Shown in pieces: positions 6,585-45,750 of a DNA stretch of 64,000 bases. Origin of the DNA: Halococcoides cellulosivorans (GTDB lineage Archaea > Halobacteriota > Halobacteria > Halobacteriales > Haloarculaceae). Under the pieces are notes generated by a model. The model was not told the origin of the DNA. It worked only from the letters and a program-made list of their open reading frames with translations, and did not search any database. The stretch is taken from NCBI RefSeq assembly GCF_003058365.1, contig NZ_CP028858.1:806001-870000 (forward strand). Direction: 5' to 3'. Each line of letters starts with the position of its first letter. The first letter of the stretch is position 1. The translations under genes and the position numbers were made by a program.

Positions 6585-6655
6585 GGGACCGTAGGGTAGC
6601 GGTATCCTCGGCGCATGGGGTGCGTCGGACCCGTGTTCGAATCACGGCGGTCCCA
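6585..6655 (+). tRNA. tRNA-Pro (anticodon GGG)
   Basis: A full cloverleaf can be folded: acceptor GGGACCG (6585-6591) with CGGTCCC (6648-6654) and discriminator A6655; D arm with GGT; anticodon stem GGCGC/GCGTC with loop ATGGGGT, anticodon GGG at 6617-6619; T stem CCGTG/CACGG around TTCGAAT. CCA is not encoded. A structured repeat begins at the very next base (see 6656-6808). Confidence 0.95.
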
Positions 6656-6808
6656 TACCACCTTTTTACTGCGGTGGGTTCGCAAGCGAACCCACCTTGC
6701 AAAAATCTGGACCAAAAACACCTGAGCGCTCACTTCGTTCGCGCTCAGTGAAACGGCTCGCTTGCGCGGCGCTACGCGCCGCGATATCGAGGCGGCAGAG
6801 CCGCCTCG
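6656..6808 (+). repeat. tRNA-adjacent multi-hairpin element, copy A
   Basis: Begins one base after tRNA-Pro with TACCACC and a T5 run (6663-6667, probable tRNA terminator), then ACTGCG, hairpin I (6674-6683/6686-6695, 10 bp), a linker containing CTGGACCAAAAA (6707-6718), hairpin II (6722-6729/6741-6748, 8 bp), TGAAACGG (6749-6756), hairpin III (6765-6772/6776-6783, 8 bp, loop TAC) and hairpin IV (6788-6796/6800-6808, 9 bp, loop AGA). The linkers recur nearly unchanged in copy B at 45422-45543, while the stem sequences differ but still pair. No credible protein is encoded. Function unknown. Confidence 0.75.
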
Positions 6809-6880
6809 CAGCCGCCGTATGCGGACCGCACCGTTCCGCACCGGACCGTTCCGCTGCGCGACCCAACGCCTCCGTCCGCG

Positions 6881-7792
6881 TCAATTGGCCGGTGGTGACT
6901 CGACCGGTTCATCCTCGCTCTCAGCGAATTCGAGATTCTCGTGCTTGTACGTGTAGACCCTGATGTCCTGGTCGTCGCAATACGAGGCCAACAGCGCCGC
7001 CGGGATGTTCTCGAGGGCCATCGGGGTATCATCGAACGAACTCGGGAACGCTACCCTGACAGCCTCGCCGTTGATCTCCTGCCCGTACAGTTCGACCTGC
7101 GTCTCGGGTGGCAACACCTCGACGACGATGGCTTCCGAGGCATCCGAGTCGCCTGCCTTCTGGACTCTGTCGCCCGGTTCGAACGGATTCGAGGGCTTCT
7201 GGTTGAGAAACGCGGTGTTCGGTCCGAGGTCGTTCAAATCGTTCATCGGGCGCGTCGGGATGTGCCGAAGCTTGTCCGGCTCGTCCCCTGAATACTCCTC
7301 CTGGGTCTCGACTTTCGAGACCAGCGTTCGGACGAACTCCCACCCGATCAGGATGAGACTGTCCTCCTTGTCGCGATGCCACGCCATCACGATGATGTCG
7401 TCGTCGGTGTCGCCCTCGACGAGCGTCTGGGGCCGAAACGCCGACACGTCTCGGGAAGTTTTCACGTCGATGTCGTACCCGAACACGCGGAAGTCGTGGC
7501 TCGTGTAGTTTTCCTCGTTGCACCGTCGAATGGCGTCCTCGTTCGCCCACTCCCACATCTCCGTCGGTAGATACTCCCGACAGAACTGCTCGAAGGCGAG
7601 TTCGCCGAGGTTCCCGACGCGCTTGACCCTTTTATCACTCTCGTGTTGTTTGGCCTGGTAGTCCGCTCGCGTGCGATCGATTTCGTCGGGAGAGAATTCG
7701 TACACGTCTCGTGCGATACACCAATATGATATGAAACTACCTGATCGAACCGAATTTGTATTCGCGACTGGTGGGCTCTCAGAACTATGCAT
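6881..7792 (-). CDS. PD-(D/E)XK nuclease-like protein, orphan
   Basis: A 303-residue protein. Residues 60-112 hold a probable restriction-endonuclease-fold core: a helix with E64 in GNLGELAFEQF, then D100 and a strand DIDVKTS giving a D-x(8)-DxK signature (D109, K111), as in PD-(D/E)XK nucleases where the second acidic residue is Asp. The rest (about 130-303) is not recognised; it has a possible small beta domain near GDRVQKAG (about 214). No methyltransferase, helicase or integrase is nearby. Its coding DNA and especially its upstream DNA are AT-richer than the surroundings, and it lies between a tRNA-linked repeat and a gene-free stretch, which suggests acquisition. The start codon is uncertain. 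Confidence 0.55.
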   Translation of the reverse strand: MHSSESPPVANTNSVRSGSFISYWCIARDVYEFSPDEIDRTRADYQAKQHESDKRVKRVGNLGELAFEQFCREYLPTEMWEWANEDAIRRCNEENYTSHDFRVFGYDIDVKTSRDVSAFRPQTLVEGDTDDDIIVMAWHRDKEDSLILIGWEFVRTLVSKVETQEEYSGDEPDKLRHIPTRPMNDLNDLGPNTAFLNQKPSNPFEPGDRVQKAGDSDASEAIVVEVLPPETQVELYGQEINGEAVRVAFPSSFDDTPMALENIPAALLASYCDDQDIRVYTYKHENLEFAESEDEPVESPPAN

Positions 7793-43392: not shown

Positions 43393-45246
43393 ATGACGGC
43401 CACACAGGGGGATCTGGCGAGTCTCTCGCAGTTCATCTTTCGAGCACCGCGATGGCATCGGAGTCTGACCGTCGCCGTCGTCGTCGCGGCGCTGGTCGGC
43501 GTGGTGGCATTCGACGCTTCGTTCGTGCTCGAAGACCTCTGGCAGGGTGTTTTCTTCGTCGGGATTCCGACGGTCGTCGCGGGCCTGCTGACCGCGCCGA
43601 TCGATCGCTGGTTCGGGGGCACACTGTCGATCGATCGGTCGGCACTGCTCGCGGTCGTCAGCGAAGCGATCGTCGTCGTCATGCTGCTCGCGGTTGCGGC
43701 GATCGGTCTCGTCACCGATCTCGGCCAGTCGGCGGTGATCGACGCGCTGATGATCGCGCTCGCGACGCTGTTTCTCGCGCGCCTGATCGTGATCTACGCG
43801 GTCTCGCGCCACCCGATCGTCGTCGCGGCGATTCCGGCCTCGATCCAGACGGTCGCGGCGGCCGCGCTCGTGTTCGTCTACGGCGGGACGTATCGCGCGC
43901 TCAACGTCGAGGCTCCGCTGTTCGAGGCGTTTCTGTACCGCCCCGATCACGCCCACCTCCCGATCGCGGGCCAGCCAGACCATTTCCTGTTGCTCGGCGT
44001 GCTCTGTGGGGTCTACGGCGTGTTCGGCTGGCTGTATCTCAACGTGCTCGATCTCCCCTGGCGGCTCTCCTTTGGCGTGAGCGCACTCGATTTCGTCGCG
44101 GGCTTTCTGGGCCACCTCGCAGACGGTCGTGACGACCTGGAGGAGTTTTTCGCGGCGGTCGGTGACGACGCGCTCGTGCCGGTCACGCTCGCGGTGTTTC
44201 GCCGCCCCGACGGCACCGAGAAAGCCCGGTTCGTCCTGCCGATAATTCACCCCGGCCCGATGGGGTCGGTCGGCGGCGGCGTCTGGCCGATCCGCGCCGA
44301 CGCGCACAGCGAGGGGCTCAGTTTCGCGCCCCACGCGACGGCGGGCCACGACTTCAATCTCGTCTCGAAAGCGGACGTCGAGACGATTCTCGACTGTGTC
44401 GAGGACCTCGACGCGCGCATCGAGACCTCGTCGACGGCGTCGGTGGGTCACCGCGTCGGGGCGGGCGACGCGACGCTGACCGGTCACGCCATCGGTGACG
44501 GCGCCCTCGTGGTCTCGACGTTCGCGCCCTCCTTTGCGGACGACGTCGACTACGCGGTCGGCCTCGCGGCCGTCGCTGAGGCGCGTCAGAACGGGCTCGA
44601 AGACGTCGCACTAATCGATGCGCACAACTCCAACGATGGCCTGCAGGGCGAGAATCTCGGGCACGTCGTCCCGGGGTGTGATCGCGCGTTCGACCTGATC
44701 GAGGGCGCGGAGTCGATCGGCGAACGACTCGCGAGCGCCGACCGCGGACCGCTCAGTCTCGGGACCGCCAGCAGCGAGACCCCCTGGGGGACGATCGACG
44801 GGATCGGCCCGCTGGGGATTCGCGTCGCCGTGCTCGATGTCGACGGCCAGACCACGGCCTACGTGCTCATCGACGGCAACAATATGGACCCGGGCTTGCG
44901 CGATCGGATCGTCGCAGCGATCGATGGGCCCGACCTCGTCGAGGTGATGACCTCCGATACACACGCCGTCAACACCGTCGAGGCCGAAAACCAGGTCGGC
45001 GATCCAATCGATCCGGGCGCGTTGACTGCGCTGATCGACGACCTCGTGAGTGAGGCGCTGGCCGACTGCGAACCCGTCGAAGCCGGCATGGCGTCCGATC
45101 GCGTTCGCGTCGGTGTGTTCGGGAACGATCGGACCGAGGCGCTCGCGACGATGGGGACGGCGGTCGTGCCGTTCGGGATCGCGCTCGCGTCGACGTTCGT
45201 CGCGTTGCTCGCGATCGTGACGGCGGTCTTGCTGGTCGCGATCTGA
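43393..45246 (+). CDS. DUF2070 membrane protein
   Basis: A 617-residue archaeal protein of the DUF2070 family. The N-terminal third has six to seven membrane segments (about 25-45, 55-75, 85-115, 120-140, 145-165, 195-215), then a large soluble domain with conserved IHPGPMGSVGGG, an HNSNDG motif (IDAHNSNDGLQGENLG), a YVLIDGNNM strand and SDTHAVN, which look like a metal-dependent hydrolase site, and ends in two membrane helices (about 585-617). The function is not established. The conserved His/Asp pattern suggests an enzyme at the membrane. Confidence 0.82.
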   Translation: MTATQGDLASLSQFIFRAPRWHRSLTVAVVVAALVGVVAFDASFVLEDLWQGVFFVGIPTVVAGLLTAPIDRWFGGTLSIDRSALLAVVSEAIVVVMLLAVAAIGLVTDLGQSAVIDALMIALATLFLARLIVIYAVSRHPIVVAAIPASIQTVAAAALVFVYGGTYRALNVEAPLFEAFLYRPDHAHLPIAGQPDHFLLLGVLCGVYGVFGWLYLNVLDLPWRLSFGVSALDFVAGFLGHLADGRDDLEEFFAAVGDDALVPVTLAVFRRPDGTEKARFVLPIIHPGPMGSVGGGVWPIRADAHSEGLSFAPHATAGHDFNLVSKADVETILDCVEDLDARIETSSTASVGHRVGAGDATLTGHAIGDGALVVSTFAPSFADDVDYAVGLAAVAEARQNGLEDVALIDAHNSNDGLQGENLGHVVPGCDRAFDLIEGAESIGERLASADRGPLSLGTASSETPWGTIDGIGPLGIRVAVLDVDGQTTAYVLIDGNNMDPGLRDRIVAAIDGPDLVEVMTSDTHAVNTVEAENQVGDPIDPGALTALIDDLVSEALADCEPVEAGMASDRVRVGVFGNDRTEALATMGTAVVPFGIALASTFVALLAIVTAVLLVAI

Positions 45247-45421
45247 TCGTCGTTATTCGATCGTTTCTTGCCTGGCACTCACGGTCAGCATCGGGTGGCG
45301 AGACTCAATAGGGGCCCTGGTCAGTCTCCTGTTGCCCGCTTTCGGTTTCAAGGTTCGCAGTTCGAGATCGCAATTTCACCATGTTCTCTGGCTCAAACCG
45401 AAATACCTGTGGAGTAAGCAT

Positions 45422-45543
45422 ACGGCGGCCTTCGGCCGCCGTTTCACTGCTGGCGAAGCCGAAGGCTGAGCCAGCAGGTCTTTTTGGTCCAGCTTTTTCA
45501 AGGAGCGGTCGCCGTCGGCGACCCGACGCAGAAAAAGGTGGTA
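45422..45543 (-). repeat. tRNA-adjacent multi-hairpin element, copy B
   Basis: On the minus strand it begins with TACCACC and a T5 run right after the duplicated initiator-tRNA 3' end, then CTGCG, hairpin I (45507-45513/45517-45523, 7 bp), a linker with CTGGACCAAAAA, hairpin II (45447-45454/45470-45477, 8 bp with an inner AGCC/GGCT), TGAAACGG and hairpin III (45422-45430/45434-45442, 9 bp, loop GAA). Order, spacing and linkers agree with copy A. Sense frames through it give basic peptides and are not genes. Confidence 0.75.
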
Positions 45544-45567
45544 TAGCGGGAGGTGGATTTGAACCAC
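45544..45567 (-). repeat. Duplicated 3' end of initiator tRNA-Met (att-like)
   Basis: A 24-bp perfect copy of 45676-45699, which is the last 24 bases of initiator tRNA-Met including the discriminator base. Similarity stops exactly at both ends. Such direct repeats are what integration at a tRNA 3' end leaves behind. Confidence 0.8.
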
Positions 45568-45675
45568 GGTCACTTCCTCGCTGGCGCTCGGTCGTTCCCT
45601 GGTTCAAATCCCCCCACCGAAGTGCGGACGCAGGACTCGTCGCTTTGCTCCTCGTCGTTGCGTCCGCAAAAACAG
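45568..45675. other. 108-bp insert with two palindromes between tRNA-end copies
   Basis: Contains a 10-bp inverted repeat TGCGGACGCA/TGCGTCCGCA (45623-45632/45659-45668), which on the minus strand follows a T5 run just after the intact tRNA, and one arm of a 12-bp inverted repeat whose other arm lies in the att-like copy (GGATTTGAACCA 45555-45566, TGGTTCAAATCC 45600-45611). No gene or tRNA can be folded from it. Confidence 0.65.

Positions 45676-45750
<75 letters not shown>

Follow-up and report, generated by a model that had tools for sequence, protein, structure and literature searches.

A dispersed three-hairpin repeat at gene 3' ends of Halobacteriales, probably a ready-made bidirectional transcription terminator

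What is the structured sequence that stands directly behind tRNA genes at two places in a 64-kb stretch of haloarchaeal DNA (the whole stretch analysed, hereafter the window), and why should it be kept there? An initial sequence-only reading had described two copies, A and B, whose linkers are nearly identical and whose hairpins differ in sequence and still pair; it proposed selection on folding of RNA or single-stranded DNA, and took the position of the copies as a sign of co-transcription with, or read-through from, the tRNA. The element (here termed E) is real, since the linkers, the terminal GTATGC and the hairpin pairing were all verified in both copies. The layout given for the copies also held, whereas copy A is longer than first stated: it runs to position 6822, with nested extra hairpins in hairpin III and the terminal GTATGC at positions 6817-6822. 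Common to copies A and B are TACCACC-T5, CTGGACCAAAAA, TGAAACGG and the terminal GTATGC; hairpins I to III are unlike in sequence, with the pairing kept, and both copies fold better than their dinucleotide shuffles (copy A, z -6.1; copy B, z -4.4). Each copy lies between a tRNA and a convergent protein gene (Table 1). Copy A follows tRNA-Pro(GGG) at a distance of two bases, and copy B follows a duplicate of the tRNA-Met 3' end at the same distance, the real tRNA-Met lying ~130 nt ahead of it.

Table 1. Copies A and B of element E in the window, with their neighbours.
Feature	Position	Strand	Basis
tRNA-Pro(GGG), precedes copy A	6585..6655	+	ARAGORN
E copy A	6658..6822	+	Sequence; covariance model R1 match, 97.7 bits
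Order of parts in copy A: CCACC-T5, hairpin I, A5, CTGGACCAAAAA, hairpin II, TGAAACGG, enlarged hairpin III, GTATGC		+	
T5 tract of copy A, proposed terminator of tRNA-Pro transcripts	6663..6667	+	Sequence; T5C of H. volcanii (PMC7237163)
Two A5 tracts of copy A (two minus-strand T5 runs), proposed terminator for the convergent gene	6700..6718	-	Sequence
Protein gene convergent with copy A, 3' end 6881	6881..7705	-	Codon-model gene call
tRNA-Met	45675..45750	-	ARAGORN; own 3' T5 tract 45672-45668 from sequence
X element between tRNA-Met and its duplicated end	45568..45618	-	Sequence; similar inserts behind other tRNAs
24-nt duplicate of the tRNA-Met 3' end, just before copy B	45544..45567	-	Sequence
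E copy B, complete three-hairpin element, end GTATGC	45418..45541	-	Sequence; covariance model match, 128.3 bits
Protein gene convergent with copy B, 3' end 45246	43393..45246	+	Codon-model gene call

Five copies in the window's own genome, all of them behind a tRNA or a duplicated tRNA end, share the pattern of linker, hairpin II and linker. They were used to build a covariance model (R1), and a second model (R2) was rebuilt from 47 copies; the E-values of these home-made models are rough. A covariance-model search of haloarchaeal genomes, which had been suggested as a check, recovered hundreds of further copies. The own genome (2.7 Mb) contains about 16, and 50 of 58 related genomes gave matches; genomes of the same family hold a median of 14 copies, and the maximum within the order is 47. 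In a phylum-wide sample, E is present in 16 of the 20 members of the order and absent from all 100 genomes outside it that were searched with the covariance model; among the sampled genomes E is confined to the order Halobacteriales. Named contigs that carry E belong to Halorientalis, Halomicrobium, Haloarcula, Halorhabdus, Halosimplex, Halovenus, Natrialba, Natronococcus, Natrinema, Halobium, Halogeometricum, Halobellus and Salinibaculum. Ten haloarchaeal plasmids match a Halorubrum-like E copy (five of the ten were confirmed with the covariance model), and no annotated features lie beneath these matches; with one Haloarcula E copy as the query, no plasmid match was obtained. A viral origin was considered and rejected, as neither viral contigs (two scans, exact patterns only) nor phage records contained E.

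The family is apparently undescribed so far. Apart from tRNA and chance hits, no family of Rfam 15 matches E at either gathering or relaxed thresholds, and no description was found in the literature, where the search was thin on subscription journals so that an earlier account is possible. The sequence-only reading, which knew of no family with this layout, was right in this respect.

The copies follow a common plan. The 5' part reads 5'-(C)CAC-c-TTTTT-(hairpin I)-AAAAA-n-GTGG-GCGAAAAAGnCC-(hairpin II), and the 3' part, after hairpin II, reads GTGAA(A/C)CG-(hairpin III)-CGnATGC-3'. The two arms of the outermost stem thus carry T5 and A5, respectively, three hairpins are joined by fixed linkers, and hairpin I often has the form CKTCGTCGGGT..ACCxCTCCTYG. 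From CACC to its end, the core measures 101-180 bp (median 126). Among 134 distinct rows, 91.2% of the cells are paired, in comparison with 67.6% after shuffling and 38-49% when the partners are slid by 1-3 positions; double changes occur in 32 of the 33 pairs, and the covariation score is 0.495 versus 0.123 for shuffled rows. These counts are biased towards the structure because the alignment was fitted to the model, but the first five copies show the same. The proposed statistical test likewise came out in favour of covariation (898 doubly changed cells versus 293 after shuffling), so the claim that structure is kept over altered sequence is borne out. The outermost stem covaries as well (CCAC/GTGG, CCAT/ATGG, CGAA/TTCG, CGAC/GTCG), and its pair -4:+4 is retained in 117 of 119 copies (shuffled mean, 81). 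The hundreds of further copies, together with the covariation, rule out chance.

Does the pairing act in RNA? G-U wobbles fill 86 of 3838 cells, 35 of them at a single position, and are not clearly commoner than A.C mismatches (65 cells). As the stems pair near-perfectly at the DNA level, pairing does not prove selection on RNA. Of the selection on folding that had been proposed, the retention of structure therefore stands, while the scarcity of G-U wobbles does not single out the RNA level. Orthologous E copies of sister species differ by whole hairpins, with nearly identical linkers and conserved flanks (L064/L081, L070/L082, L063/L084), which suggests that copies undergo conversion or exchange with one another, or that the palindromes are rewritten.

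The position of E relative to genes was analysed in the best-scoring 121 copies from 100 loci outside the own genome, a sample in which tandem and orthologous copies are non-independent and neighbouring genes were called with a simple codon model. In 97 of the 121, the nearest upstream neighbour is the 3' end of a sense gene or tRNA (a tRNA in 20). In 55 copies, no more than 8 nt separate the start of E from a stop codon or the end of a tRNA, a placement seen in 6.2% of random windows from the same gaps; in 18, the 3' end of E comes to within 9 nt of a convergent gene's stop. Gaps that contain E are convergent in 47 cases, co-directional in 43 and divergent in 6, whereas the corresponding numbers for gaps without E are 20, 87 and 81. 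E recurs behind the same gene families across genera, namely behind spt5-like genes in four and behind cdc48-like, sufS-like and nuoI-like genes in up to three (the names are our reading of the translations), and is often retained at orthologous sites in sister species. The tie to tRNAs that first drew attention to the locus proved to be an enrichment and not a defining trait: a tRNA lies within about 300 nt upstream of 11 of the 16 own-genome copies and a tRNA-Leu remnant precedes one more, while elsewhere E mostly follows protein genes, with tRNAs still enriched. A definition of E as a tRNA-specific RNA is ruled out, as most copies stand behind protein genes.

The feature that E brings to these sites is a T tract on either strand. 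A run of at least five T near the 5' end of E on the plus strand is found in 114 of the 121 copies; 117 have a minus-strand T5 and 108 have two minus-strand runs. T5/A5 runs amount to 20.8 per kb in E versus 1.2 per kb in other gaps, and merely 20 of 433 gene ends without E have a T5 within 60 nt. In Haloferax volcanii, T5C by itself terminated 95% of transcripts in vivo (PMC7237163). Because T5 is present on both strands and such a tract stops transcription in Haloferax, E most likely acts as a bidirectional transcription terminator. RNA polymerase arriving from the upstream gene or tRNA would halt at the first T5 of E, and polymerase arriving from a convergent gene would halt at the T5 runs on the other strand; E copies inserted elsewhere would be lost because they truncate a gene or block a promoter. 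The postulated co-transcription with the tRNA, or read-through from it, is left without support, given that E begins with a T5 tract, which is a haloarchaeal transcription stop. Since T5 alone is enough in Haloferax, the conserved hairpins are superfluous for termination by itself; exchanged as whole modules, they would most likely serve spreading (recognition as single-stranded DNA or cruciform), protection of RNA 3' ends, or both. Two findings count on the other side: some copies lie tens to hundreds of bases off the nearest gene end, and some genomes of the same order live without E. On balance, this dispersed, non-coding, non-autonomous repeat of the Halobacteriales probably provides gene 3' ends with a ready-made terminator for both directions. 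The first account missed the symmetry of terminators on the two strands, the fit of E to stop codons, the gene-end repeats beside it and its mobility.

Compared with the T-tract terminators of archaea (T5C, Haloferax volcanii; PMC7237163), E likewise places T5(C) directly behind the stop codon; beyond that, it has a mirrored set on the opposite strand as well as three conserved hairpins, and it is a homologous family that spreads, whereas T-tract terminators are tracts that arose independently. The bidirectional stem-loop terminators of low-GC Firmicutes (PMC1590033) resemble E in having complementary A/T tracts around a stem between convergent genes. In E, however, the tracts stand in the reverse order, with T5 in the 5' arm and A5 in the 3' arm, so that the tract precedes the hairpin, and E is, unlike the Firmicutes terminators, a single homologous family.

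E spreads, as judged from identical copies at unrelated sites, empty sites in sister species and flanking repeats. Several copies in genome G113 share 98-100% identity, yet their upstream flanks are unrelated (47-54% identity); E is absent from three genomes of the same genus (G036, G123, G133). Genome G001 lacks E at the orthologue of locus L061, where about ten bases separate the two stops, and a sequence of ~36 bp that is doubled around E in genome G020 (L072) is single in G001; at the orthologue of L513, the insert that contains E is missing from G036. Flanking direct repeats scoring at least 18 accompany 22 of the 121 copies (about 18%) versus 0.17% of mismatched controls. These repeats are 21-125 bp long, mostly lie within a few bases of E on both sides, and represent the 3' end of a neighbouring gene, usually the convergent one, or of a tRNA. 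A second, often truncated, E precedes the repeat in about half of these cases, as expected for local tandem duplication of E plus gene end; no second E was seen ahead of the repeat at L072, L110, L138, L142 and L158. Replication slippage at the long hairpins could account for the tandem units of E plus gene end, but not for dispersal.

As to the enzymes, Y1_Tnp is absent from seven E-rich genomes (G002, G013, G015, G022, G037, G113, G143), and Y1 transposases are therefore dispensable for E; genome G138, which lacks E, has ten Y1_Tnp matches, and no E was found within about 1.5 kb of 30 Y1_Tnp loci (a search of elements that carry a Y1 transposase). None of 21 genomes contains an RVT_1 reverse transcriptase. 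Tyrosine recombinases occur in all 24 genomes tested and are thus uninformative on the spread of E. A bolder version of the terminator reading, which we put forward tentatively, would make E a transposase-less 'terminator transposon', for which an unrecognised enzyme targets gene 3' ends (stop codons and tRNA ends), often duplicates 20-125 bp of the gene end and thereby supplies convergent genes with new bidirectional terminators throughout the order.

The same evidence of spread might be read differently. E could be purely selfish, its insertions at gene ends being merely harmless and its T/A tracts forming a recognition structure instead of terminators that benefit the host. Recent multiplication, presence/absence differences and identical dispersed copies fit such an element, as do hairpins beyond the needs of termination and the similar behaviour of bacterial REPs (PMC3733652). 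Yet two-strand T5 is kept in 94-97% of copies despite diverged sequence, and members of the same gene families are followed by E in several genera, while E often persists at orthologous sites of sister species; we consider pure selfishness unlikely. Less likely still is that E is an att-like scar left where tyrosine-recombinase elements integrated at the 3' ends of genes, the gene-end repeats being attL and attR. The repeats are indeed 3' ends of tRNA or protein genes, the gene stays whole, and tyrosine recombinases are ubiquitous in the genomes tested. However, there is just E itself (about 125 bp) between the repeats, in genes of many kinds; about 80% of the copies have no such repeat, and the second E ahead of the repeat fits local tandem duplication. 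A tRNA-linked role of E as a small RNA or as an element of RNA processing, the view from which the analysis started, has become very improbable: the enrichment behind tRNAs in own and other genomes is clear and the covariation strong, but protein genes precede most copies elsewhere, a terminator tract opens the element, G-U does not exceed A.C in the stems save at one position, and an Rfam match is lacking.

Among known mobile repeats, the closest counterparts of E are the REP/BIME sequences of bacteria (GTAG and CGTC super-families; PMC3733652), which are also dispersed, palindromic and intergenic, lie mostly behind genes, avoid divergent gaps and are able to act on transcripts. The distance between a REP and the stop of a convergent gene is <20 bp (PMC3733652), and E shares the location at gene 3' ends in convergent and co-directional gaps. 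Many E copies likewise have CGTC at the base of hairpin I, within the hairpin and not as a tag at the end of E. REPs are single hairpins of 20-40 bp tagged at one end (PMC3733652), whereas E comprises about 125 bp with three hairpins and fixed linkers; unlike REPs, it carries T5 on both strands, has a haloarchaeal host and is independent of a Y1/RAYT gene, the transposase that accompanies REPs of the GTAG type only. The PATEs and SMRs of Haloquadratum (PMC3119063) resemble E as transposase-free, high-copy mobile repeats of haloarchaea; PATEs are palindromic, and SMR-A has a length of about 110 bp. PATEs have ends (near-terminal palindromes) in common with IS605-type elements and cause no target duplication, whereas an IS605 link is absent from E. 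SMRs have terminal inverted repeats and target PATEs, whereas the ends of E (CCACC... and ...GnATGC) are not inverted repeats of the MITE/SMR kind, and its flanking repeats measure 21-125 bp. Unlike PATEs and SMRs, E sits at gene ends, partly with long flanking direct repeats. The host reverse transcriptase that a SINE-like retroposon relies on was not found. That E is an archaeal member of the REPs or PATEs, mobilised by a Y1 transposase (IS200/IS605, RAYT-like), or that it is a retroposon, is scarcely credible: E is palindromic, non-coding, high-copy and stop-codon-adjacent like REPs (PMC3733652) and PATEs (PMC3119063), and target repeats of variable length would fit a retroposon, but Y1_Tnp is lacking from the seven E-rich genomes and matched ten times in G138, which has no E, Y1 loci have no E nearby, and RVT_1 was not detected.

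A repeat family with tens of copies in most haloarchaeal genomes has apparently never been annotated. If E terminates transcription both ways, transcript ends are set by a mobile regulatory part in organisms whose terminators are poorly understood, and E is a natural part for gene insulation. Long duplications of gene ends that need neither Y1 transposase nor reverse transcriptase point to an uncharacterised process that mobilises or duplicates DNA. E also opens the question why dispersed palindromic repeats of both bacteria (REPs) and archaea settle at stop codons.

Several further elements were seen near E. Some copies (L015, L018 and L020 in the own genome; also L495 and L086) contain a nested insert, 'Z' (GAGAGAGCGAAGCTCTCTCGTGATGACGAAAGAGCGC...), inside hairpin I or just before it. 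Another dispersed and structured repeat, 'K', is about 400 nt long, has no match in Rfam and often stands directly behind E (3' of it at L512, L513, L515, L518, L525, L527 and L530; genomes G113, G143, G052, G036 and G123). Its core is GGGACTCAAAGGGGCAG, also GCGAGGCTGGGGAGG and CTGGGGCTTTG, with 54-100 matches per genome in five of six species of a Halorubrum-like genus and 6 in the sixth. In the own genome, a 4.8-kb stretch (G000:C1:1679538-1684391) lies between tRNA-Leu(GAG) plus E and a duplicated tRNA-Leu 3' end plus a second E, and is possibly an integrated element bounded by E copies. A cluster of ~13 mostly low-score tRNA matches within 2.6 kb (G000:C1:2635124-2637763) resembles the tRNA arrays of haloviruses and is perhaps a provirus. 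Inserts like the X element of the window (45618-45568) occur in several haloarchaea, often with E behind them (L005, L013, L069, L071, L088). In them, the T-arm of the tRNA is repeated in inverted orientation, together with a hairpin (GGGAACGGAG..GGAGTGACCG or AGTCGCAGC..GACCGTCT) and another copy of the tRNA 3' end, a makeup that allows the insert to pair with the duplicated T-arm.
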